NCBI RefSeq assembly: GCF_020166515.1
Contig: NZ_JAINZT010000009.1
Location: 1-64,000, forward strand
DNA: 64,000 bases
Reading direction: 5' to 3'
DNA from: Robertkochia flava
Lineage (GTDB): Bacteria; Bacteroidota; Bacteroidia; Flavobacteriales; Flavobacteriaceae
Of this stretch, positions 1 through 59,663 are shown piece after piece (positions within the stretch are counted from its first letter, which is position 1; every line of letters begins with the position of its first letter). Made by a program: the position numbers and the translations under genes. The notes under the pieces were generated by a model. The model saw nothing but the letters and a program-made list of their open reading frames with translations, searched no databases and was not told the origin of the DNA.

Positions 1-107
1 GAAAATATTTTTTCCAAGTTGCCCTTCGCGTTTTCAATGCCGTGTAAAAGAACTTTTTCGCTCCAAACTGCCCCTCTTACAAGGTGCCTTGTTGTTCAAA
101 GCGGGTG

Positions 108-140
108 CAAATATAAGACGGGTTTTTGTTTCCCTCCAAG
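108..140 (-). promoter_or_regulatory. Strong minus-strand promoter, rRNA-operon-like leader
   Basis: Read on the minus strand there is a perfect TATATTTG (-7 element of Bacteroidota sigma factor) at 108-115, with a TTG about 21 bp upstream. It is followed by GCACCCGCTTTG and a leader containing CATTGAAAACG that runs out of the window at position 1. Leaders beginning with TTTGCACCCGC are what I recall upstream of flavobacterial rRNA operons. No gene follows inside the window, so the transcript is long-leadered or belongs to an rRNA operon just to the left. The promoter call is fairly secure; the rRNA assignment is inference. Confidence 0.5.
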
Positions 141-179
141 CTTTTGAATGTTAATTTTTGAAAGTTTTTGGTAAGCGGT

Positions 180-1235
180 TGGAGGTTACAAGGTTACGAG
201 CCTGCCTGCCGCAGGCAGGGGTACGGGGTACGGAGGCAGGGAGGCAGGGAGACAGGGAGGCGAGATGAGTGATGCGAGATGAGTGATGCGGGAAGCGGGA
301 AGCGGAAAGCGGAAAGCGGGAGTTTACTCATTATAGTATTCCCAGCACTTTACAACTTCACTACTTTACACCTTTACCTATTTACCCATTTACCTATTTG
401 CCTATTCGCCTATTCGCCTATTCGCCTATTCACCAATGGATCCACAGATAAGTGATGCGAGATGAGTGATGCGGGATGAGTGATGTGGGAGTCGGGAGTC
501 GGGAGACAGGGAGACAGGGAGACAGGGAGACAGGGAGACAGGGAGGCGAGATGAGTGATGCGAGATGAGTGATGCGGGAAGCGGAAAGCGGAAAGCGGGA
601 GTTTACTCATTATAGTATTCCCAGCACTTCACTACTTTACACCTTTACCTATTTACCCATTTACCTATTTGCCTATTTGCCTATTCGCCTATTCGCCTAT
701 TCACCAATGGATCCACAGATAAGTGATGCGAGATGAGTGATGCGGGATGAGTGATGTGGGAGTCGGGAGTCGGGAGACAGGGAGACAGGGAGGCAGGGAG
801 GCAGGGAGGCAGGGAGGCAGGGAGGCAGGGAGGCAGGGAGGCAGGGAGGCAGGGAGACAGGGAGGCGAGATGAGTGATGCGAGATGAGTGATGCGAGATG
901 AGTGATGCGGGAAGCGGAAAGCGGAAAGCGGAAAGCGGAAAGCGGGAGTTTACTCATTATAGTATTCCCAGCACTTCACGACTTTACACCTTTACCTATT
1001 TACCCATTTACCTATTTGCCTATTCGCCAATGGATCCACAGGCACAGGATGCGAGACGTGAGACGCGGGAGTCGGGAGTCGGGAGAAGGGAGTTTACTCC
1101 CTATAGTATAGTTCACGACTTTGCTCCCATGCCTGCCGGCAGTTAAATTTGCTCCTTTGCTACTTCGCTCCTTTACGGCTTTACGACTTCACCCCTTTAC
1201 CTATTTACCTATTTACTTATCCGCCTATCCGCCTA
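180..1235. repeat. Nested intergenic simple-repeat array (about three macro-copies)
   Basis: About 1 kb without a gene. Roughly three macro-copies (beginning near 233, 541 and 800) each contain the same ordered blocks: a period-8 run (GGCAGGGA or GACAGGGA), a period-15 run (GATGAGTGATGCGAG), a period-7 run (AGCGGAA), a single-copy spacer with TTTACTCATTATAGTATTCC, a pyrimidine-rich period-8/9 run (CCTATTTA, CCTATTCG), AATGGATCCACAGA, and a GTCGGGA run. Copy number of each block differs between macro-copies, the longest being the period-8 run at 780-860. The plus strand carries many GGG tracts. The ORFs here are repeat translations rich in Ser, Pro and Leu and are not genes. The array ends at the porin stop codon. 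Confidence 0.9.
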
Positions 1236-21163: not shown

Positions 21164-21880
21164 TCAGGTGAGCTGTTGCTCCTTTACCATCTCCGCTTCG
21201 AAGTGTCGGGCAAAATGATGGATAATACGGGCTTTAACTTCTTCCATATCGATCTTATCCTTCCCTAATTCGACATTCAGCGAGGTTACGGACTTATCCC
21301 GAATACCACATGGAATAATATTATCAAAATACCCCAGGTCTGCATTGACGTTAAAAGCAAACCCATGCATGGTGATCCACCTGGAAGCACGTACCCCCAT
21401 GGCACAGATCTTCCGGGCAAAAGGTGTTCCCACATCCAGCCAGACGCCGGTCTCGCCTTCAGATCGCTCTCCCTTCAATCCGTACTCGGCCATGGTACTG
21501 ATAATGGTCTCTTCCAGTAAGCGCAGGTATTTGTGGATATCGGTGAAAAAATTTTCCAGGTCAAGGATGGGGTACCCCACTACCTGTCCCGGCCCGTGGT
21601 AGGTAATATCCCCTCCCCGGTTTATCTTGTAAAAAGTAGCCCCACGGGCTTCGAGTTGCTCCTCATTAAGCAGCAGATTAGAAAGATCCCCACTCTTTCC
21701 CAATGTATACACATGCGGATGTTCCACGAACAAAAAATGATTCGGAGTGGGTTCCTCCAGCCCTTCTCTTCGGTTCCTAACTTTCATATCGAAAGTCTGC
21801 TGAAACAAATCTTCCTGATAATCCCAGGTCTCCTTATAATCCTTAAACCCTAGATCCTTTACAACTACCTTTTTATTCAT
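21164..21880 (-). CDS. lipB: Octanoyl-[acyl-carrier-protein]:protein N-octanoyltransferase
   Basis: LipB moves octanoyl from acyl carrier protein to lipoyl domains, the first step of endogenous lipoate synthesis. The 238-residue protein has the family motifs in order: FVEHPHVYTLGKSG, INRGGDITYHGPGQVVGYPI, ARKICAMGVRASRWITMHGFAFNV (catalytic Lys), and IIPCGIRDKSVTSL (catalytic Cys). Length is normal for Bacteroidota. A TATCTTTG element at 21885-21892 on the minus strand stops 5 bp before the start codon. The message is therefore probably leaderless or nearly so. It converges with the lipoprotein gene and has its own transcription unit. Confidence 0.96.
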   Translation of the reverse strand: MNKKVVVKDLGFKDYKETWDYQEDLFQQTFDMKVRNRREGLEEPTPNHFLFVEHPHVYTLGKSGDLSNLLLNEEQLEARGATFYKINRGGDITYHGPGQVVGYPILDLENFFTDIHKYLRLLEETIISTMAEYGLKGERSEGETGVWLDVGTPFARKICAMGVRASRWITMHGFAFNVNADLGYFDNIIPCGIRDKSVTSLNVELGKDKIDMEEVKARIIHHFARHFEAEMVKEQQLT

Positions 21881-21884
21881 GGAG

Positions 21885-21892
21885 CAAAGATA
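21885..21892 (-). promoter_or_regulatory. -7 element of lipB, implying a leaderless mRNA
   Basis: TATCTTTG on the minus strand lies only 5 bp from the lipB ATG (21880). Transcription would therefore begin at or next to the start codon if this element is used. Confidence 0.5.
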
Positions 21893-21911
21893 GGGAATTA
21901 GTTAGTAGTTA

Positions 21912-22070
21912 GTCGGGAGTCGGGAGTCGGGAGTCGGGAGCTTGCCTGCCTGTGCGAAGCACGGTAGGTCGGGAGCTTGCCATCCCTCACGGGAGGAAAT
22001 CCTGCCTGCGCGAAGCACGGTAGGTCGGGAGCTTGCCATCCCTCACGGGAGGTCGGGAGAAGGGAGTATA
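21912..22070 (+). repeat. Modular repeat cluster: GTCGGGA microsatellite with embedded cores
   Basis: Four GTCGGGA units (21912-21940) lead into a short core (21941-21968, lacking the middle module), GTCGGGAG, a full core (21976-22024), GTCGGGAG again, a half core (22032-22052) and finally GTCGGGAGAAGGGAG. The full core begins CTTGCCATCCCTCACGGG, includes GGAAATCCTGCC and ends GCGAAGCACGGTAGG. The same core recurs at 55163-55211 and 58395-58443. The tail GTCGGGAGAAGGGAGT matches 1071-1092 of the left-hand array. Confidence 0.85.
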
Positions 22071-24569: not shown

Positions 24570-25310
24570 CTACTTAATCAATTCTTTATTCACCCGAGTA
24601 TCGGCCATGGCCTCCTTGGCGTGAAACCTTTCGAGAATATGATAATCCATTTCCTTATAGATGATCTTATCCAGGTCGCCTACATGAGGATCAAAATGCT
24701 CGGGAAGATAAGCTGTGGTATCATACCCCAACACTACCTCTTCCAGCTCCTCGGCATAGGCCAGGTCATTAAGATTTCCAAGGTGAGGATCAAACCCCTC
24801 AGGCAGCCAGGCGGCGGTATCAAAACCAAGGTCTACCTCCACCTCTTCTTCAGCGTAAGCAATGGCATTAAGGTTACCCGCATGGGCATCGAACCCTTCA
24901 GGCAGAAATGCTGCGGTATCGAAACCGAGATCTACTTCGACCTCTTCTTCAGCGTAAGCAATGGCGTCCAGGTTACCCGCATGGGCATCGAACCCTTCAG
25001 GCAGATATGCTGCGGTATCGAACCCGAGTACTACCTGCACTTCCTCTTCCATATAAACGATGGCATCAAGATTTTCTACATAAGGATCAAAACCTTCAGG
25101 AAGGTACTCGGCAGTATCAAATCCTAATTCCACCGTTTCTTCTCCGTAAATATTCTCTACAAATCCCAGATGATCGAGATCTGGTGCAACATGTACTACT
25201 TCATAATTGGTCTTATCGCATACAGCCTGTTGCTCTGTTGTATCGGTTACCGTATGGGTAGTTCCGTTCCATCCCAGAATTAAACTACCTACTAAAATTA
25301 AACTGTTCAT
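24570..25310 (-). CDS. Exported protein of five 33-residue LGFDT..LPEGFD repeats
   Basis: I start this at 25310 (MNSLILVGSLILGW), giving 246 residues with a signal-peptide-like N-terminus; the frame is open 14 codons further. From residue 62 the unit LGFDTAAxLPEGFDxHxGNL, followed by xxIAYAEEEVEV, occurs five times at exactly 33-residue spacing (LGFDT or LGYDT at 62, 95, 128, 161, 194). A degenerate half-unit (HLGFVENIYGEE) comes before. The middle repeats are nearly identical in DNA, indicating recent unit duplication. The repeats are very acidic; the C-terminus turns basic (HAKEAMADTRVNKELIK). No catalytic motif is present. I recognise no named family; a cell-surface or periplasmic repeat scaffold, possibly cation-binding, is only a guess. 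It is monocistronic. Confidence 0.8.
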   Translation of the reverse strand: MNSLILVGSLILGWNGTTHTVTDTTEQQAVCDKTNYEVVHVAPDLDHLGFVENIYGEETVELGFDTAEYLPEGFDPYVENLDAIVYMEEEVQVVLGFDTAAYLPEGFDAHAGNLDAIAYAEEEVEVDLGFDTAAFLPEGFDAHAGNLNAIAYAEEEVEVDLGFDTAAWLPEGFDPHLGNLNDLAYAEELEEVVLGYDTTAYLPEHFDPHVGDLDKIIYKEMDYHILERFHAKEAMADTRVNKELIK

Positions 25311-32261: not shown

Positions 32262-32305
32262 CCTGCCTGCGGCAGGATTTCCTCCCGTGAGGGATGGCAG
32301 GCTCG
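32262..32305 (-). repeat. Dispersed repeat core, inverted copy
   Basis: Read on the minus strand it starts CCTGCCATCCCTCACGGG, passes GGAAATCCTGCC and ends CCGCAGGCAGG. The left and middle modules match the cores at 21976, 55163 and 58395. The right module is the alternative GCAGGCAGG type also seen at 200-220. It is the only copy found in opposite orientation. Confidence 0.75.
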
Positions 32306-51574: not shown

Positions 51575-51647
<73 letters not shown>

Positions 51648-51683: not shown

Positions 51684-51723
51684 ATGCCCGAAAGACGGCG
51701 AAACTTGTTTCAGCCGGATGGCG

Positions 51724-52310
51724 GGCATAAAAAAACCAGGTCTTGCGCAGCAAGCCCCGGTTTTGGGAGTAAAGCCACCCCACTTTGGTCCAACGACCGA
51801 GGGAAACGAGGGAGTTAATCCAGCAAGCAACCCCTTCCGTCAACGCCAATGGCGGTGCCACCTTCCCCTGACCTGGGGAAGGAACCCATTCTGATTATCC
51901 TGATCAATACTTGCTTGAGCGAAACGGCAGGGCATAAAAAAACCAGGCCGTGCGCAGCAAGCCCCGGTTTTGGGAGTAAAGCTCCCCCCAAAGGTCCAAC
52001 GACCGAGTGCAACGAGGGAGTTAATCCAGCCAGCAACCCCTTCCGTCAACGCCAATGGCGTTGCCACCTTCCCCTGACCAGGGGAAGGAACCCCATTCTG
52101 ATTATCCTGATCATTACCTGCTTGAGCGAAACGGTAGGGCATAAAAAAACCAGGCCTTGCGCAGCAAGCCCCAGTTTTGGGAGTAAGGCCACCTCCACTC
52201 TGGTCCAACGACCGAGGGAAACGAGGGAGTTAATCCAGCAAGCAACCCCTTCCGTCAACGCCAATGGCGGTGCCACCTTCCCCTGGTCAGAGAAGGAGCC
52301 ATTTCTAAAT
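51724..52310. repeat. 207-bp tandem repeat, about 2.8 copies
   Basis: Copies begin with GGCATAAAAAAACCAGG at 51724, 51931 and 52139, a spacing of 207 and 208 bp. Each unit holds TTGCGCAGCAAGCCC, GGTCCAACGACCGAG, GAGGGAGTTAATCCAGC, CTTCCGTCAACGCCAATGGC and a stem-loop with CCTTCCCC / GGGGAAGG (in copy 2 a perfect 10-bp stem, CCTTCCCCTG / CAGGGGAAGG). A diverged single copy lies at 53505-53615. Open frames on either strand through the unit are repeat translations, not genes. Confidence 0.9.
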
Positions 52311-53384: not shown

Positions 53385-53625
53385 GGGTGCCGGGGAATCA
53401 GTTTGAGTTGGAGTTGGAGTTTGAGCTTGTCTGCCTGTGCGAAGCACGGTAGGTTGGAGTTTGAGTACTAGGTCCGGAAATTCAATTGGCAAAAAAGCAT
53501 AACTGATTTTGGGAGTAAAGCCCCCCTTTCCGGTCCAACGACTGAACGCAGTGAAGGAGTTCATCCTGCCCGCAACCCCTTCCGTCAACGCCAATGGCGT
53601 TGGTACCTTCCCCCTGATTCTTATT
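53385..53625. repeat. Repeat mosaic: TTGAG/TTGGAG microsatellite, partial core and single 207-bp-type unit
   Basis: AGTTTGAGTTGGAGTTGGAG (53399-53420) leads into a shortened core (53426-53453, missing the middle module, ending GAAGCACGGTAGG), then TTGGAGTTTGAG. From 53505 a diverged copy of the tRNA-adjacent unit follows (GGTCCAACGACTGA, CTTCCGTCAACGCCAATGGC). The rest of the gap 53188-53707 is AT-rich and shows no gene. Confidence 0.8.
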
Positions 53626-53707: not shown

Positions 53708-54715
53708 TCACATTAAAAACCCATTCTCATCCACCACAGGTCCGGGAATGTCGGAGTCGTCGATCATTTCCCGAAGATCGATCTCAATACCTCTGGCAAT
53801 AGTGGTGATGGGCACGTCGTTATAAGAGCCTTCAAAAGGATTCTCGGAATAATCTCCAATTTTCTCCATCAGGAAAAATACCCAGATCAGCAAAGCGGAG
53901 AGCAGGGGCGCGAGCCACCGTACCCAATTTTCGTAGGATTCAAAAATATCGTTCATTCCAAGAGGAACCATGGCACAAAAAACAAAAGTTAACCACAGGG
54001 CAGTTGAAGCATATTGTCGTGGAAGTGGAAAGTTCTTTATTCTCTCCGACTTTCCCTGATCGGTATAAAAACTTGTAATATGATGATGAAACTCCATGTG
54101 CCGAAAGTCTTCAAAATACCCCTGGTCTCTTAATATTTGAAGTCTCACAGACTGATTTAACAGGATCTGGGTCGCTATATTGGTCTTAGAAGCCAGCTGT
54201 TCTATTTCTGCGTCGGGCAGATAGCCTTTTAATTCCGTCAAAATAGATTCGGCAACCTGTTCCGGTGCGACAGGCAGCGAATTACTCTTAACCCGTTCAT
54301 TCCTATGCTCCCACGGTTTTCCCACCCTGAGTTGATGTCGGAGGGCTGTCAACCAGCCAATATGCCGGTAAAGCAGTTCCTTTTTAATCTGATGATCATT
54401 CTCTCCCTTTACAAATGCCACAACCCCCGCTCCGAAGGAACGACTGCTGTTCACGATCGCACCCCATATTTTACGAGCTTCCCATGTTCGGTCGTAAGAA
54501 CTGTTGTTCTTAAAGCCCAGATAAAAGGCCACCGCAACACCAACCACACTTATAGGCTGCCATGGTATGGAGAATTTAATATCCAAAAGGTACTGTAAAA
54601 TATAAACGGAAATGGAATAAATAAATCCGGTAAAAAAGGCTTTTTTTGACCAGAGAAAGGTCATCCAGAACCCATAATTTCTTTTTGTATACATATTGTA
54701 ATAATTGGAGATCAA
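53708..54715 (-). CDS. Bestrophin-family channel protein
   Basis: This 335-residue membrane protein of the bestrophin/RFP-TM family (PF01062; UPF0187) starts YNMYTKRNYGFWMTFLWSKK. It has the family stretches VAFYLGFKNNSSYDRTWEARKIWGAIVNSSR, LTALRHQLRV, and ALWLTFVFCAMVPLGM. Near the C-terminus NPFEGSYNDVPITTIARGIEIDLREM is the conserved bestrophin end. Bacterial homologues form pentameric channels; Klebsiella KpBest conducts cations rather than chloride. Met1 or Met8 could be the start. It is monocistronic and lies between two repeat-filled spacers. Confidence 0.92.
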   Translation of the reverse strand: MISNYYNMYTKRNYGFWMTFLWSKKAFFTGFIYSISVYILQYLLDIKFSIPWQPISVVGVAVAFYLGFKNNSSYDRTWEARKIWGAIVNSSRSFGAGVVAFVKGENDHQIKKELLYRHIGWLTALRHQLRVGKPWEHRNERVKSNSLPVAPEQVAESILTELKGYLPDAEIEQLASKTNIATQILLNQSVRLQILRDQGYFEDFRHMEFHHHITSFYTDQGKSERIKNFPLPRQYASTALWLTFVFCAMVPLGMNDIFESYENWVRWLAPLLSALLIWVFFLMEKIGDYSENPFEGSYNDVPITTIARGIEIDLREMIDDSDIPGPVVDENGFLM

Positions 54716-55061
54716 CTTTAAAAGGACACCATAAATCCAGTGATTTTCCTTTTAATGCCGGAATTCAATTACAATTTAAATCATTTTTATCATTTATTCT
54801 CTTAGTGCTATATGGCGGTTTTATTCTTACTTAAAAGCCGAATAAAACCAGGGCTAAACAGTCAACTAAGGTTTCATCGAGGTTGGGCTGATTTCCCAAC
54901 AGGATTCAAGGATAACAGACCCTTCTTTTTCTATTTTCTTATTTATTGCTCTTGAACCTTTATGGTTTTACTTTAAGCATTGGAATTGTGAATCCATGAC
55001 ATCTCAAAATCTACCTTAGCACCAATAAGGGACATAAAAAAGTCGGCGACTGATATATCAG

Positions 55062-55215
55062 GGTTGGGAGTGGCAGCGCCCCGCCCGACCCCTCCTCAGG
55101 ATGCGCCGAGCAAAGCGAGGCAATCCAGGGGGGATCAGTTTGAGTTTGAGGTTGAGTTTGAGCTTGCCATCCCTCACGGGAGGAAATCCTGCCTGTGCGA
55201 AGCACGGTAGGTTGG
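55062..55215. repeat. Dispersed repeat: TTGAG microsatellite with full core
   Basis: CAGTTTGAGTTTGAGGTTGAG (55136-55160 region) leads into the full core at 55163-55211, followed by TTGGAGCTTAAGG. Upstream, 55085-55135 shows GCGCCGAGCAAAGCGAGGCA, loosely like the GACCGAG..ACGAGG piece of the tRNA-adjacent unit. The rest of the ~840-bp gap (54716-55553) is AT-rich and shows no gene. Confidence 0.8.
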
Positions 55216-55553
55216 AGCTTAAGGACTAGTTCGGGAATTTCAATTAACAAAAAAGCGTAACCGGTTTATAGAGTAAAGCTATAACCCTTGGTCCGCCGAG
55301 AAAGGCGAAGCTATTCAGCTTCCTCACAAATCAACTCCACGGGATAATGGAAGAGCGAAGCGAATTTTATAATCCTGCTAAAACAAATTCCAATTTTCAA
55401 ATCCAAACTTCGAAAGAGTAAAGAAGCACAGAGGCAAACTTGCTTTTAAAATTACCCGTATGCCTGTAGACAGGATCGTACCGCTTAAAAATCATAAAAT
55501 TATTGTTTTTCGATAATTATTTATACTTTTACAATAATTATATATCATTACTT

Positions 55554-56075
55554 ATGAATAACAGGACTTTAAAAACAGCCATTTACGTCATCCGTTTATT
55601 ACAGCTCGGATACCTGCTGATGGTCATTCTAATGCTTTATCTTCTCCTTGCTACTTATTTTAACTGGACCTACCCGGAAATGGTTTTTAATCATCTTCCT
55701 CACTGGTTTACCATAGATTTCGGAGAAAACGAGATCTTCCAAAGTTCATTTAACCAGGTTTATTATGCCGTTCAGGGCACTGTCCTGGCCACCTTAATTC
55801 TGTTATCGTTAGAGGCCCTGATTCAGATCATATACTCCATAAGAAGCTTAACTGCGTTTAAGTCAGATTCGATTATAAAGTTCAGAAGAATCGGAGTGTA
55901 TACCTTCCTATGTTTTCTTATCACCCTGGTAAAACCACAATATGTTGAACAGGTCTTCTCCCTTAAAATATCCTTCGAATTTCAATACCTGCTTTTTGCT
56001 TGTGTAGCACTCATGCTGGCAGAAGTCTTTAAGGAAGGAAATAATTTATGGGAAGAAAATCAATTAACCATTTAA
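55554..56075 (+). CDS. DUF2975-type integral membrane protein
   Basis: I start this at ATG 55554 (MNNRTLKTAIYVIRLLQ), giving 173 residues. The open frame extends 17 codons upstream through AT-rich promoter DNA and is unlikely to be translated. Four membrane segments are visible: LLQLGYLLMVILMLYLLLATYF, VLATLILLSLEALIQIIYS, VYTFLCFLITLV and YLLFACVALMLAEVF. This is the DUF2975 pattern. DUF2975 genes are commonly followed by a small Cro/CI-type regulator, as here (3 bp gap), suggesting a membrane-sensor and regulator unit. The ligand is unknown. Confidence 0.85.
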   Translation: MNNRTLKTAIYVIRLLQLGYLLMVILMLYLLLATYFNWTYPEMVFNHLPHWFTIDFGENEIFQSSFNQVYYAVQGTVLATLILLSLEALIQIIYSIRSLTAFKSDSIIKFRRIGVYTFLCFLITLVKPQYVEQVFSLKISFEFQYLLFACVALMLAEVFKEGNNLWEENQLTI

Positions 56076-56078
56076 GCC

Positions 56079-56285
56079 ATGCCAATAGTAGTTAACCTTG
56101 ACGTGATAATGGCCAAGCGTAAAATGAGGTCAAAAGACCTTGCCGAAGCCTTAGGAATAACCGAAGCTAACTTATCGATATTAAAGACCGGAAAAGCAAA
56201 GGCGATCAGGTTTTCAACCCTGGAAAGCATATGTGATATCCTGAATTGTCAACCTGGAGATATTTTAGAATATAATAAAAAGTAA
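56079..56285 (+). CDS. Cro/CI-type HTH regulator (YozG-like)
   Basis: A 68-residue single-domain repressor-type HTH: VVNLDVIMAKRKMRSKDLAEALGITEANLSILKTGKAKAIRFSTLESICDILNCQPGDILEY. This is the short XRE form that travels with DUF2975 membrane proteins. It has no sensor domain of its own. It lies 3 bp after the DUF2975 gene and 4 bp before a lipoprotein gene, so the three form an operon. It probably regulates this operon, with the membrane protein as partner; this is by analogy, not shown by the sequence. Confidence 0.92.
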   Translation: MPIVVNLDVIMAKRKMRSKDLAEALGITEANLSILKTGKAKAIRFSTLESICDILNCQPGDILEYNKK

Positions 56286-56289
56286 AATC

Positions 56290-56967
56290 ATGAAAACAAA
56301 AACCTTAAAAGGAATTTTAACAGGATGCATCGGATTAATCAGCTTGTTATCATGTCATTCACAACGTTTTGACTGCGAACTTTCAGTAATGGAAAATGAG
56401 CTGCTTACCCGCTATAACAAAGATCAGGAAATCAGGAATGAGCTGATTCCGGTAGCCATGGAATATCAGAAAAGCGGTAAGGGTGCCTTCAAACTATTAA
56501 AATTAGCCAACAGGATGGAACGCATCGATTCCGACAACCAGGAATATCTCGAAAAATTATTCACCTCTTGTGGCTGGCAAGATAATTTAAGTCGGCAAGC
56601 ACATAACGCCATTTTCATGATCATCCAGCACGCAGACCTGGAATTCATGAACACCTATATTGAAGAGGTCCGAAAAAAATCGGAGCTGGGATTATTGGAT
56701 AAGGATGATTATGCTATTATGTTAGACAGACGCCTGATGTACCAGGGAGAAGCACAATTGTTTGGCTCCCAGACCTTTCAGGGAACAGACAAAAAAAATT
56801 ATATCTGGCCCATCTCCAACCCCGAACAATTACCTCATAGAAGAGATTCTGTAGGTCTGCCCAACATGGAGAAATATCTGGCAATAGCTAAAGACAGCAC
56901 GGGGATTGATATTATATGGGATAAAACGCTAAAAATGGAGGATGCGAAAAAATTAAAGCTGGATTAG
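56290..56967 (+). CDS. DUF6624-like lipoprotein
   Basis: A 225-residue protein with a lipoprotein signal (LISLLSC, Cys22). The C-terminal two thirds fit the DUF6624 pattern: LLTRYNKDQEIRNELIP, GWQDNLSRQAHNAIFMIIQHADLEFM, and DDYAIMLDRRLMYQGEAQLFGSQTFQ, the last corresponding to the family's 'DRxLxxQGxxQxYGTQ' motif. Function unknown. It is the third gene of the DUF2975-HTH operon, starting 4 bp after the regulator. This pairing is not one I recall and is noted as a finding. Confidence 0.82.
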   Translation: MKTKTLKGILTGCIGLISLLSCHSQRFDCELSVMENELLTRYNKDQEIRNELIPVAMEYQKSGKGAFKLLKLANRMERIDSDNQEYLEKLFTSCGWQDNLSRQAHNAIFMIIQHADLEFMNTYIEEVRKKSELGLLDKDDYAIMLDRRLMYQGEAQLFGSQTFQGTDKKNYIWPISNPEQLPHRRDSVGLPNMEKYLAIAKDSTGIDIIWDKTLKMEDAKKLKLD

Positions 56968-57163
56968 CCCGGAACTTGATGAAACCTTGGTGTAACATGG
57001 AATCTGTCATTTCCCCAAAGGCGCTCTCCATTTACAGCCATAACAAAGAAGTACTTGCTTATCGGATAATCAAGGTAAAATAAAGTCATCCGGAAAAAAT
57101 GCTGCCAAATCTACATGCAAAAGGACATACAGGCAGGCAAGTGAACCACCAGACAGGGGTATC

Positions 57164-57196
57164 GGTTCGGGGTTATTCCCTGAACAACCCCGAACC
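57164..57196. repeat. 11-bp perfect hairpin in an otherwise featureless gap
   Basis: GGTTCGGGGTT / AACCCCGAACC with an 11-base loop. No T run follows, so it is not a standard terminator. The 308-bp gap 56968-57275 holds little else except a short CAGGCAGGCAAG piece at 57131-57142 related to the repeat modules. Confidence 0.6.
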
Positions 57197-57275
57197 TCAG
57201 CCTGGTCTTTACTACTGTAACAAAACACCAATTCACTCGTCTTCAATCATATACAACCATCAATCCAGTTACACT

Positions 57276-58214
57276 ATGAAGTCACGAGTATACCGTTTGC
57301 AGTCGGCCCCACTGACCTGTGTTTTTTTCCTTCTCTTTTTTACCGCAACCTATGCTCAGCCTTCCTACCCCACCGACCCGGACCTGGCGGAACTCCACTA
57401 TACCGACCTGGAACATTTCACGGAGGCCTACCACGCCCTTCAATCTGCCAATGATACCCTGGAAGTTTTACAAACGATGTATTTTGACCGGGCCACACCC
57501 GGACTCCGGGAGTTCATAAGCAAACACCAGCTTACCCCGGAATTACTGAAGGATGCCATTGAAGCCCATCCGGAACGCTATGCACTCATTCCCGGGCTCC
57601 TGGAAAATATCGAAGAACTGCAAAGGACACACAAAGCCCTGATGAAAAAATATGCCACCGTATTGCCCGGTGCGATGTATGCCCCCACCTGGCTGCTGGT
57701 AGGAGCCAACAGGGGTATTGGTCAGGCCTCCAGGGTCGGCCAGTTGATCACTGTAACCCGCGTGACAGACGACCTGAATAAATTGGAAAAACTAATGACC
57801 CATGAGCTCTCTCATTTTCAGCAAGCCATGGCTATGGGCCCCCAAAAATACGGAGCTCTGTACAGCACCCCTAACAATATGCTAGGCCTATGCCTTCGTG
57901 AAGGCGGAGCTGAGTTCATTACCTCCCTGGTATTAAGCGATATCACTCAAACCAAATCACTCGCTTTTCTCGAGCAAAATGAAAAAGACCTGAAGACGAA
58001 ATTCAAGGCAGACCTGAATTCCCAGGATATGAATTACTGGATGTGGAACTCTTTAGATCAGCAAGACCACCCACCACTTCTCGGCTATGTAATGGGCTAT
58101 AAAATATGTGCGGCCTATTACGATGCAGCCGAAAATAAAAAAGACGCCCTGAAGGCCATTCTAAAGATGGAAAATGCCGAAGATTTCCTGATCCGGAGTG
58201 CCTACCTGGAATAG
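57276..58214 (+). CDS. Exported HExxH zinc-protease-like protein (DUF2268/gluzincin type)
   Basis: I start this at ATG 57276 (MKSRVYRLQSAPLT), giving 312 residues with a signal peptide ending ATYAQ. The longer open frame begins in the repeat-bearing gap. A helical N-terminal part precedes LMTHELSHFQQAMAMG, with HExxH at residues 176-180. GLCLREGGAEFI follows about 30-35 residues later and supplies a glutamate as probable third zinc ligand. A conserved tail GYVMGYKICAAYYDAAENKKDALKAILKM is typical of DUF2268-like predicted Zn proteases. It is extracytoplasmic; the substrate is unknown. It stands alone. Confidence 0.8.
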   Translation: MKSRVYRLQSAPLTCVFFLLFFTATYAQPSYPTDPDLAELHYTDLEHFTEAYHALQSANDTLEVLQTMYFDRATPGLREFISKHQLTPELLKDAIEAHPERYALIPGLLENIEELQRTHKALMKKYATVLPGAMYAPTWLLVGANRGIGQASRVGQLITVTRVTDDLNKLEKLMTHELSHFQQAMAMGPQKYGALYSTPNNMLGLCLREGGAEFITSLVLSDITQTKSLAFLEQNEKDLKTKFKADLNSQDMNYWMWNSLDQQDHPPLLGYVMGYKICAAYYDAAENKKDALKAILKMENAEDFLIRSAYLE

Positions 58215-58344
58215 GGAGGGTACAGTAATCATTATCATTTTAATACCACCCCAATGATGATTCATGAAATGAGTGCGACCAAATTTCATCAACCGGCCAA
58301 AGCTTTGTAAAGCTCCAATATTTAAATGATAAAGTAGTAAGGAG

Positions 58345-58470
58345 AGTTTGGGTTTGGGTTTGGGTTTGGGTTTGGGTTTGGGTTTGAGGTTGAGCTTGCC
58401 ATCCCTCACGGGAGGAAATCCTGCCTGTGCGAAGCACGGTAGGTTTGGGTTTGAGGTTGAGGTTGAGGGA
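58345..58470 (+). repeat. (TTTGGG)n microsatellite with full dispersed core
   Basis: Six TTTGGG units (58348-58384) are followed by TTTGAGGTTGAG, the full core at 58395-58443, then TTTGGGTTTGAGGTTGAGGTTGAGGG. The array can form a G-quadruplex on the plus strand. It lies downstream of the HExxH gene and is adjacent to nothing else coding. Confidence 0.85.
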
Positions 58471-58538
58471 TTATAAAATTGTGAGATGGCATAAGCACTA
58501 CCGCTCATGTGATGTCGAGAAGATCCACCCGGTCCTGA

Positions 58539-59285
58539 CTACAACTGCGAATACGGAAGTCTTTTCAGGAAAACCCGGGTAATATCGTTCATGGAATTGG
58601 CATATTCCTCAATTTCGGTGATTCGCTTCCATTCGGGATGTTCTATAAAAGCAGACCACCCCTTTGCATTGGCCTCCTTATCTTTTGAGGCGAGCATATA
58701 CGTCAGGCAAGGCATATGGTTCCCGGCAATATCCACCCCAAAGAATACCATAGGCAGGCCGGCATCCTCGAAAATCGGAAATTCAGCATCATTAAACATT
58801 TTCACCTTTCTGCGCAATCCATCCTCATTATGGCTGTGATAAATACGGAGTTCAAAAAGTTGTGCATCGGCATCCGGCTTCACCAGGTTAGGGAATCCAT
58901 AGGTGGATCGAATCAGGTTGGTTGTATATTCATTGTAGGGAATTGCGGTTTCAGGGGCCTCTAAATAAGGGGTGGCAGTATCCAAATAGGCCTCATCCTT
59001 CAATAAGTTTTGCTGACTATCCAGAAAAGCCTGCATATCACCATATGGAACCAGGAGATAGATCTTCTTAGGCAAGGCCTCTCCAGCCACCTCAAAAACC
59101 CCCACATGCCTGATGCCCTGTCGGTTTAAAGCCGGAATAAGCGCGGCTTCAAAATACTTGTGAAGCACATCAGCCGATCGAAAAAATTCAAGTTCATAAG
59201 TCCTCAATTCATAGACCTCTTTCTGGGCTGTCAGGCTTTGAAATAATAAGAGCAGTAAGGCGGGAAGAAATAGTCTGATATACAT
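58539..59285 (-). CDS. NIPSNAP-family exported protein
   Basis: I start this at 59285 (MYIRLFLPALLLLLFQ), giving 248 residues with a signal peptide ending SLTAQ. The earlier open frame covers promoter DNA. Two NIPSNAP-like halves are visible (PF07978): VYELRTYELEFFRSADVLHKYFEAALIPALNRQGIRHVG and AQLFELRIYHSHNEDGLRRKVKMFNDAEFPIFEDAGL, then MPCLTYMLASKDKEANAKGWSAFIEHPEWKRI. NIPSNAP proteins are small ferredoxin-like-fold proteins of uncertain function. It is monocistronic, divergent from the GLPGLI gene with a 410-bp gap. Confidence 0.9.
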   Translation of the reverse strand: MYIRLFLPALLLLLFQSLTAQKEVYELRTYELEFFRSADVLHKYFEAALIPALNRQGIRHVGVFEVAGEALPKKIYLLVPYGDMQAFLDSQQNLLKDEAYLDTATPYLEAPETAIPYNEYTTNLIRSTYGFPNLVKPDADAQLFELRIYHSHNEDGLRRKVKMFNDAEFPIFEDAGLPMVFFGVDIAGNHMPCLTYMLASKDKEANAKGWSAFIEHPEWKRITEIEEYANSMNDITRVFLKRLPYSQL

Positions 59286-59663
59286 GAGTCCAAGGGTGTT
59301 AGTGAACCTAAAAATAAGGAATATTCCCCTAAAATTAAGCCATTTATACTTTTCGTATCTTCCACACATTCCATACGTTCTTCTTATTGTAATACTCTTT
59401 AGTTGTGGTAAGTAAGATACTGATCACCCACCGGCCATGTTGAAAAAAATTCTCACAGCATATGTTTTAAAGGCCAGGGATGTTTGCAGATACACTTGAG
59501 GTTCAGGCAGGGGCATCCCGGCCCGGTGAAGGGCCATTAGCCATTCCTTCCGGAGTTAAACAATTTGGGCCAATTCCCCTCATGATGCCAACCGCTTCCT
59601 AAGCCCTGAGCGTTAAGTAATGTTAATATTCGTATAAAACAGCTCTTCTGTTTAACCTTTTAC

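Follow-up and report, generated by a model that had tools for sequence, protein, structure and literature searches.

The window, the 64-kb stretch of DNA analysed here, carries in its intergenic spacers a short hairpin element, the core, embedded in G-rich tandem arrays (Table 1). Three copies follow one another in the spacer upstream of a lipoate-ligase gene (21164–21880), and others lie towards the right end of the window. The long and short copies that a preliminary description had placed in the window are all real, as is the shortened form at its third position in the cluster, a 21-bp truncated core that could have arisen when DNA was deleted between two near-repeats, CACGGGAGG and CACGGTAGG. 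Two further claimed copies (200–220, and an inverted one at 32262–32305) do correspond to elements, but these are members of a sister family whose ends are CCTGCC...GGCAGG. Within the window, CCATCCCTCACGGGAGG and CGAAGCACGGTAGG each have five matches, compared with 0.17 and 0.26 expected, respectively (100 shuffles for CCATCCCTCACGGGAGG).

Table 1. Core copies, sister elements and adjoining arrays (window positions).
Feature	Start	End	Strand
Heptamer array, TAGTTAG x2 + TCGGGAG x4, left flank of first core	21899	21940	+
Short (28-bp) core	21941	21968	+
Single TCGGGAG unit between cores	21969	21975	+
Long (49-bp) core with 21-bp module A	21976	22024	+
Single TCGGGAG unit between cores	22025	22031	+
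Truncated core; putative deletion CACGGGAGG/CACGGTAGG	22032	22052	+
Right flank units TCGGGAG, AAGGGAG	22053	22066	+
Hexamer array TTGGAG/TTTGAG	53400	53425	+
Short core, CTTGTC variant	53426	53453	+
Right flank TTGGAG TTTGAG	53454	53465	+
Hexamer array TTTGAG	55137	55162	+
Long core	55163	55211	+
Right flank TTGGAG	55212	55217	+
Hexamer array TTTGGG, then TTTGAG GTTGAG	58346	58394	+
Long core	58395	58443	+
Right flank TTTGGG TTTGAG GTTGAG GTTGAG	58444	58467	+
Sister element, type 2 long: CCTGCC-module A-TGCCGCAGGCAGG	32262	32301	-
Sister palindrome, type 2 short, beside 8-mer units	201	219	.

Copy number and anatomy of the core

A search of the whole genome (3.45 Mb, 13 contigs) with CCTGCCTGTGCGAAGCACGGTAGG, a check that had been proposed, returned 34 copies at three mismatches or fewer, while the reversed control pattern returned none. 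Merging of copies located within 300 bp of each other left 25 loci. The most common long core is 49 bp in length and reads CTTG-CC-ATCCCTNNCGGGAGGAAAT-CCTGCC-T-GTGC-GAA-GCAC-GGTAGG. The short core (28 bp) lacks exactly 21 bp of the long form; this stretch, module A (most often ATCCCTNNCGGGAGGAAATCC), is the middle module that had been described as deletable, and it is indeed present or absent in both the core and the type 2 sister family (Table 1).

The right part of the core folds through CCTGCC:GGTAGG pairing around an inner GTGC:GCAC stem, one T being bulged, and module A is predicted to fold as a second hairpin. As read from the sequence, the ends CTTGCC and GGTAGG can pair only with two G·T pairs. 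Folded as DNA, the core does moderately better than shuffled sequences (z = -2.0). None of 16 pairs in the core alignment was altered on both sides; since compensatory changes are lacking, the structure rests on folding and on comparison between families. Core copies are intergenic, and often located directly 3' of a gene. Seven of 32 core rows fall inside short predicted frames (91–210 aa) that overlap arrays; the reality of these frames is doubtful, and we take them as chance.

Junctions and choice of site

The junctions of 32 of the 34 copies were tested, the copies at C6:46447 (changed left end) and C8:34810 (truncated left end) being left out. The search pattern fixed the core's own ends, not its flanks. 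Every one of the 32 delimited copies lies at a unit boundary, with AG before it and T after it. The register of the flanks was scored as the best of periods 6, 7, 8, 9, and 12, for the cores and for both control sets, with a threshold of 0.7. At this threshold, the flanking units matched in phase at 32/32 cores, compared with 431 of 6000 AG^T control sites and 582 of 12,000 random sites. For two of the 32 cores (L047:7875 and window 58395), both in 6-mer arrays, another shift, one unit away, scored equally or higher. The earlier proposal of a dispersed, non-coding element tied to microsatellites is borne out, with exact boundaries and register with several unit types. The claim that the same repeat stands on both sides of each core holds at the level of at least 0.7 identity, but the two neighbouring units are similar rather than identical at 13 of the 32 cores. 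The repeat differs by locus, as had been stated, but its units are better written TCGGGAG or TGGTTAG (7 bp), TTGGAG, TTTGAG, or TTTGGG (6 bp), and TTTGAGGATGAG (12 bp).

The periods of core arrays (6, 7, or 12 bp) exclude a short fixed-length duplication; with 6 and 7 alone, any fixed duplication below 42 bp would already break the register somewhere. A one-unit duplication varying with the array would keep register, and is not excluded by register alone; the unequal neighbours at 13/32 cores speak against it. The core therefore lacks the fixed-length target duplication typical of MITEs of DDE elements, and in this respect it agrees with the PATEs of the IS200/IS605 family.

The motif to the left of the core is GGAG, TGAG, or TTAG, and TCGGGAG is preferred in mixed arrays. 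It was the left unit at 17 of 23 heptamer junctions, compared with 35% of the other units in core arrays. Three junctions lie in one uniform TGGTTAG array, and the left units of the last three, ACGGGAG (L050:1003) and TCATTAG and TTGTTAG (L053), fall outside the unit pattern used. The right neighbour was TCGGGAG in 11 of 17 cases, which is no excess over the fraction of 0.58 predicted from run clustering (p = 0.38). With a preference on the left and a right neighbour as run clustering predicts, the site seems to be set from the left side. On the same grounds, the idea that TCGGGAG units to the right were transferred along with the core was rejected. About half of intergenic KKAG^T sites (395/819) are located outside arrays, yet by eye an array adjoins each of the 25 core loci on at least one side, and array context therefore matters.

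Sister hairpin families

In two sister families, the outer stem is kept and the inner stem is changed. Type 2 comprises CCTGCC-GCA-GGCAGG and the plain palindrome CCTGCCTGCCGGCAGGCAGG, while type 3 has the inner stem TACC:GGTA. Module A is present in the core, type 2, and type 3. We gathered 35 distinct contexts of the palindrome (not all of its matches) from this genome, its congeners, and a few other relatives. In 19 of these, the palindrome kept phase with a neighbouring repeat (score of at least 0.7), and period 8 was the best of periods 6–9 each time (seven contexts here, five in congener G299, six in congener G300, and one in another genus). For instance, the order is ACCGCATA-palindrome-ACCGCATA in G300, and TCCGTACC-palindrome-TCCGTACC in this genome. 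The other 16 scored below 0.7; by eye, most of them are not in arrays, and some belong to copies of a single larger repeat. With at most one mismatch, the palindrome was found in 12 of 60 genomes, our own included. Among the copies in phase, the type of hairpin goes with the period of the array, the core occurring in 6-, 7-, and 12-mers and CCTGCCTGCCGGCAGGCAGG in 8-mers.

A de novo scan for interrupted arrays in a 443,845-base sample of this genome gave 59 rows, many of them coding or array-internal. It recovered the core and sister hairpins, including type 3 in 7-mer arrays (L052:3540 and L041:8997). The same scan of G300, G299, and G301 gave 1, 7, and 11 rows, none of which was the core element. 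Palindromes CGTCTTTGCGAG...GAAGCAATCT were also seen among arrays at L081 and L084 (G299) and at L048; by eye, they resemble the CGTC REP super-family (PMC3733652).

Intergenic arrays

In the same sample, 181 of 221 non-overlapping arrays were intergenic, mostly with periods of 8, 7, 14, and 6. Of the 40 heptamer runs, 25 were free of a delimited core (merged, 12 coreless loci); two of these 25 adjoin the truncated copy at C8:34810. Among arrays at most 100 bp from a gene, those at stretch edges being left out, the G-rich strand ran away from the gene in 69/74 cases in this genome, 19/21 in G300, 7/8 in G301, and 2/2 in G299; a stricter gene cut-off gave 67/69 in this genome. Beyond 300 bp from a gene, there was no orientation rule (10 away and 9 toward in this genome). 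Near genes, the G-rich strand leaves both 5' and 3' gene ends, and the spacers look head-to-head, like fused telomeres.

Larger repeats were seen as well. The contig start (window 1–1230) contains a higher-order tandem repeat of ~271 bp composed of 7-mer and 8-mer arrays. Contig C2 begins with partial copies of it, and C9 ends with a 127-base match. A possible paralogous empty site at C2:631 did not align cleanly with these 271-bp repeats, and was not used. Downstream of a tRNA (51575–51647), a ~207-bp tandem repeat containing TTTTGGGAGTAAAGCC occupies 51723–52285, and by eye similar sequence stands beside two core loci (53480–53600 and 55250–55375). Window 55273–55375 is the source of both matches of congener G223 to 53708–59369. 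A 99-bp tandem repeat (24767–25121, 3.6 copies) overlaps long open frames.

Clustered copies and similarity between loci

Seven loci have at least two delimited copies within 200 bp. Where both forms are present, a short 5' copy is followed by a long one at four loci (the window cluster, L041, L048, and L053); L054 is a fifth such case if a decayed long copy is counted, while L046 is long-short-short. A locus-specific variant is common to the short and long copies at L041, L048, and L054, and partly at L053, but not in the window, and the unit between neighbouring copies is of the local kind. The shared variants and the local spacer unit indicate that clustered copies probably arose in place.

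The 14 long cores were more alike within an array class than expected: 43 of 10,000 permutations, with two neighbouring loci merged. In a first class test with those two loci separate, the counts were 34 of 5000 for long cores and 169 of 5000 for module A. The right part alone (31 rows) gave 460 of 5000, with no clear class effect.

Orthologous spacers and distribution in relatives

At three mismatches or fewer, the core was absent from the congeners G223, G299, G300, and G301. In a family sample of 299 genomes, in which G223 is the sole congener, it was found only in our own genome at one mismatch or fewer. A degenerate 22-base core pattern had no match in named GTDB genomes (our own may be left out of that set), an exact 24-base core had none in viral contigs, and the 49-base core had none in plasmids or phages. 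Module A had two matches in named genomes (Methanolinea and Lachnospiraceae records); by our own estimate this is about chance level, and they were dropped. Arrays of TCGGGAG are present in three of the five genus genomes, our own included.

Comparison with orthologous sites in relatives, which had been suggested as a check, was done for the window cluster and two C10 spacers (three cores). No core was present in the orthologous spacers as covered, the G301 left flank at spacer A and the middle of G299 spacer B being outside coverage. The spacer upstream of the lipoate-ligase gene holds a different array in each species: TCGGGAG 7-mers here, 13-mers in G300, 9-mers in G301, and TGGTTAG 7-mers in G299; the three congeners thus have other arrays and no core at the place of the window cluster. 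Window 21880–21940, set beside L091, L097, and L099, looks like very fast array replacement at a fixed place. Spacer B of C10 has TAGAGAG-TAGAGAG-TCGGGAG heptamers and no core in G300, and by eye no array in the parts compared in G299 and G301. Aligned congener DNA is mostly ~65–80% identical, with changed arrays, and offers no allelic empty site.

Replication strand

The strand was set for each stretch by third-position GC skew; L041 was left out as ambiguous. The written core strand was on the negative-skew strand at 20 of 24 loci (binomial p = 0.0015), compared with 56 vs 60 (56/116) for the G-rich strand of coreless intergenic arrays (Fisher p = 0.0016). Coreless heptamer loci were split 6 vs 6, which makes for a weaker contrast (p = 0.053), and hexamer loci 3 vs 6. 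The few long sister elements had no strand bias. C9 and C11 both start with 5S rRNA on the positive-skew strand, which supports taking that strand as leading; gene orientation leans slightly the opposite way in our sample (54% of gene bases lie on the presumed lagging strand), and the leading/lagging naming is therefore provisional. Loss of hairpins can be strand-dependent, and the bias may come from gain or from such loss.

Transposase and known families

Looking for a cognate transposase elsewhere in the genome had been suggested as a check; a search for the Y1 transposase domain (PF01797) gave no match in the whole genome (controls were positive in 5/14), and mobilisation by a resident Y1/RAYT gene was rejected. 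Among the five genus genomes, PF01797 occurs only in G300, in two genes with other palindromes beside them. These genes are RAYT-like (L103:1426–1824 and L104:1231–1788), and the one on L104 is surrounded by recurring palindromes, for example CGACGAGGACGTCGGCGGCAGC, that bear no relation to the core. At the gathering score, the only Rfam match in the window was a tRNA; an S15-Flavobacteria leader is present in the genome. The host is probably one of the Flavobacteriaceae, with which this leader and the many genera of its family agree.

Discussion

Our reading, held with modest confidence, is that a short non-autonomous hairpin element, the core, spread through one lineage by insertion into existing G-rich arrays. 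In favour of insertion are the exact junctions, the register, the absence from the congeners searched, the dependence on arrays, the preference on the left, and the strand bias. Points against it include the missing Y1 transposase, the missing covariation, the clustering of long cores by array class, which also fits exchange, the weaker strand contrast with coreless heptamer arrays, and the lack of an allelic empty site. The target would be the fast-changing G-rich tandem arrays of intergenic spacers, which the core would enter exactly between two units, after KKAG and before T, with no fixed-length duplication or loss. By analogy with IS200/IS605 and REP elements, it may move as a single-stranded DNA hairpin exposed at the replication fork. 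After arrival, replication slippage may multiply copies locally, producing short-unit-long pairs and loss of the 21-bp module; slippage could skip the module-A hairpin and then re-copy the core. Some exchange between arrays of the same class may be added, and the mobilising enzyme may have been lost, or be of a kind other than Y1.

Copying of the core between arrays without a transposase, by template switching or gene conversion, is the main and a serious rival to insertion; we regard it as possible, though less likely than insertion. It would account for the lack of a Y1 transposase, for the contact of every core locus with an array, for the match of element type and array class (with period 8 in 19/19 in-phase palindrome arrays), for the clustering of long cores by class, and for the hybrid array at L049:2950, which has heptamers to the left of the core and mostly hexamers to the right. 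Such copying might be guided by a skeleton shared by the units, T-G-AG in 6- and 7-mers and NNYGNANN in most 8-mers, and would then keep register automatically. Against copying, the core is present in 6-mer and TGGTTAG arrays without adjoining donor TCGGGAG units, the right-hand neighbours bear no sign of co-transfer, and the same boundaries, CTTG and GGTAGG, are seen with several unit types. Insertion and array exchange may both act.

The preliminary description left open whether the element targets or generates microsatellites. Targeting agrees with the register of all 32 delimited cores and with the arrays at all 25 loci. Generation would require that insertion duplicates a few bases, that excision leaves a tandem pair, and that repeated cycles build the array. 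The tight linkage of element and array, with similar units flanking every delimited core, is what such cycles would leave; we nevertheless consider them very improbable, since most heptamer runs (25/40) have no delimited core, G299 and G300 carry TCGGGAG arrays and no core, the duplication would need to range from 6 to 12, neighbouring units are unequal at 13/32 cores, and 16/35 palindrome contexts lack an in-phase repeat at 0.7. It is equally improbable that selection maintains the core near genes as a conserved hairpin with a regulatory or terminator role: its intergenic position, often directly 3' of a gene, and its predicted hairpins would suit such a role, but it is absent from the orthologous spacers examined, no T-run follows the hairpin, its orientation follows the replication strand, and the 10 window genes near elements share no family.

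Several known systems resemble parts of the picture. The GGGNATC heptamers of Xanthomonas and Nostoc are likewise intergenic G-rich 7-mers with the G-rich strand pointing away from the nearest gene, at either gene end (Rehm et al. 2015, PMC4692102). They differ in having one unit type per genome group, conserved places, and, in what is available of that paper, no embedded element (PMC4692102), while here the units differ by locus and species and contain hairpin elements. Heptamer arrays of TAACTGA, abundant and mostly intergenic, occur in Beggiatoaceae, Cyanobacteria, and some Bacteroidetes, but have a single unit sequence and, as far as that source goes, no core (PMC4679880).

Like REP/RAYT elements (PMC3733652, PMC2817692), the core is short, GC-rich, and imperfectly palindromic, and its copies are dispersed in intergenic DNA, sometimes in clusters. 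Unlike REPs, it lacks a GTAG, GTGG, or CGTC head directly 5' to the palindrome (core and sister heads are CTTG or CCTG, and GTAG is found only inside the 3' arm), there is no RAYT in the genome, the copies within the clusters seen have the same orientation, and the element is tied to arrays. With IS200/IS605 elements and their PATEs, it shares the lack of a fixed-length target duplication, hairpins and, less clearly, insertion 3' of a short left motif (PMC7290912). The replication orientation bias (20/24 core loci vs 56/116 coreless arrays) is a further likeness, a lagging-strand link being known for IS200/IS605 (PMC6006769). It differs from that family in that no tnpA was found in the genome, the core is only 28–49 bp long, an array is needed beyond the tetranucleotide, and, with strand naming provisional, it is the complement of the core as written that would serve as lagging-strand template. 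Given the lack of REP heads and of a transposase, we do not file the core under IS200/IS605 or REP.

Plants have microsatellite-targeted elements, rice Micron among them, and those of the SaTar and MuTAnT type are much longer than the core. SaTar of guayule and rice (PMC5907723) and MuTAnT of Medicago (PMC4486113) are, like the core, small, non-autonomous, seated in microsatellites, and built into modular arrays, but they are eukaryotic Mutator-like elements; another account of small plant elements in microsatellites is PMC8449440. In the literature searched, with subscription papers largely outside its coverage, no bacterial microsatellite-targeting element was recognised. The core looks like a bacterial version of these plant repeat-targeting mobile elements. 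Tentatively, it may stand for a bacterial class that needs a tandem array as its target, with the hairpin type matched to the array period, a fixed phase, no duplication, no resident Y1 transposase, and possibly movement driven by the replication fork.

The insertion register can be measured against the arrays as against a molecular ruler: unit lengths of 6, 7, 8, and 12 bp make it readable even where no empty allele is available. Since one orthologous spacer holds a different array in each of four species, array turnover and gain of the element can be traced within the genus.
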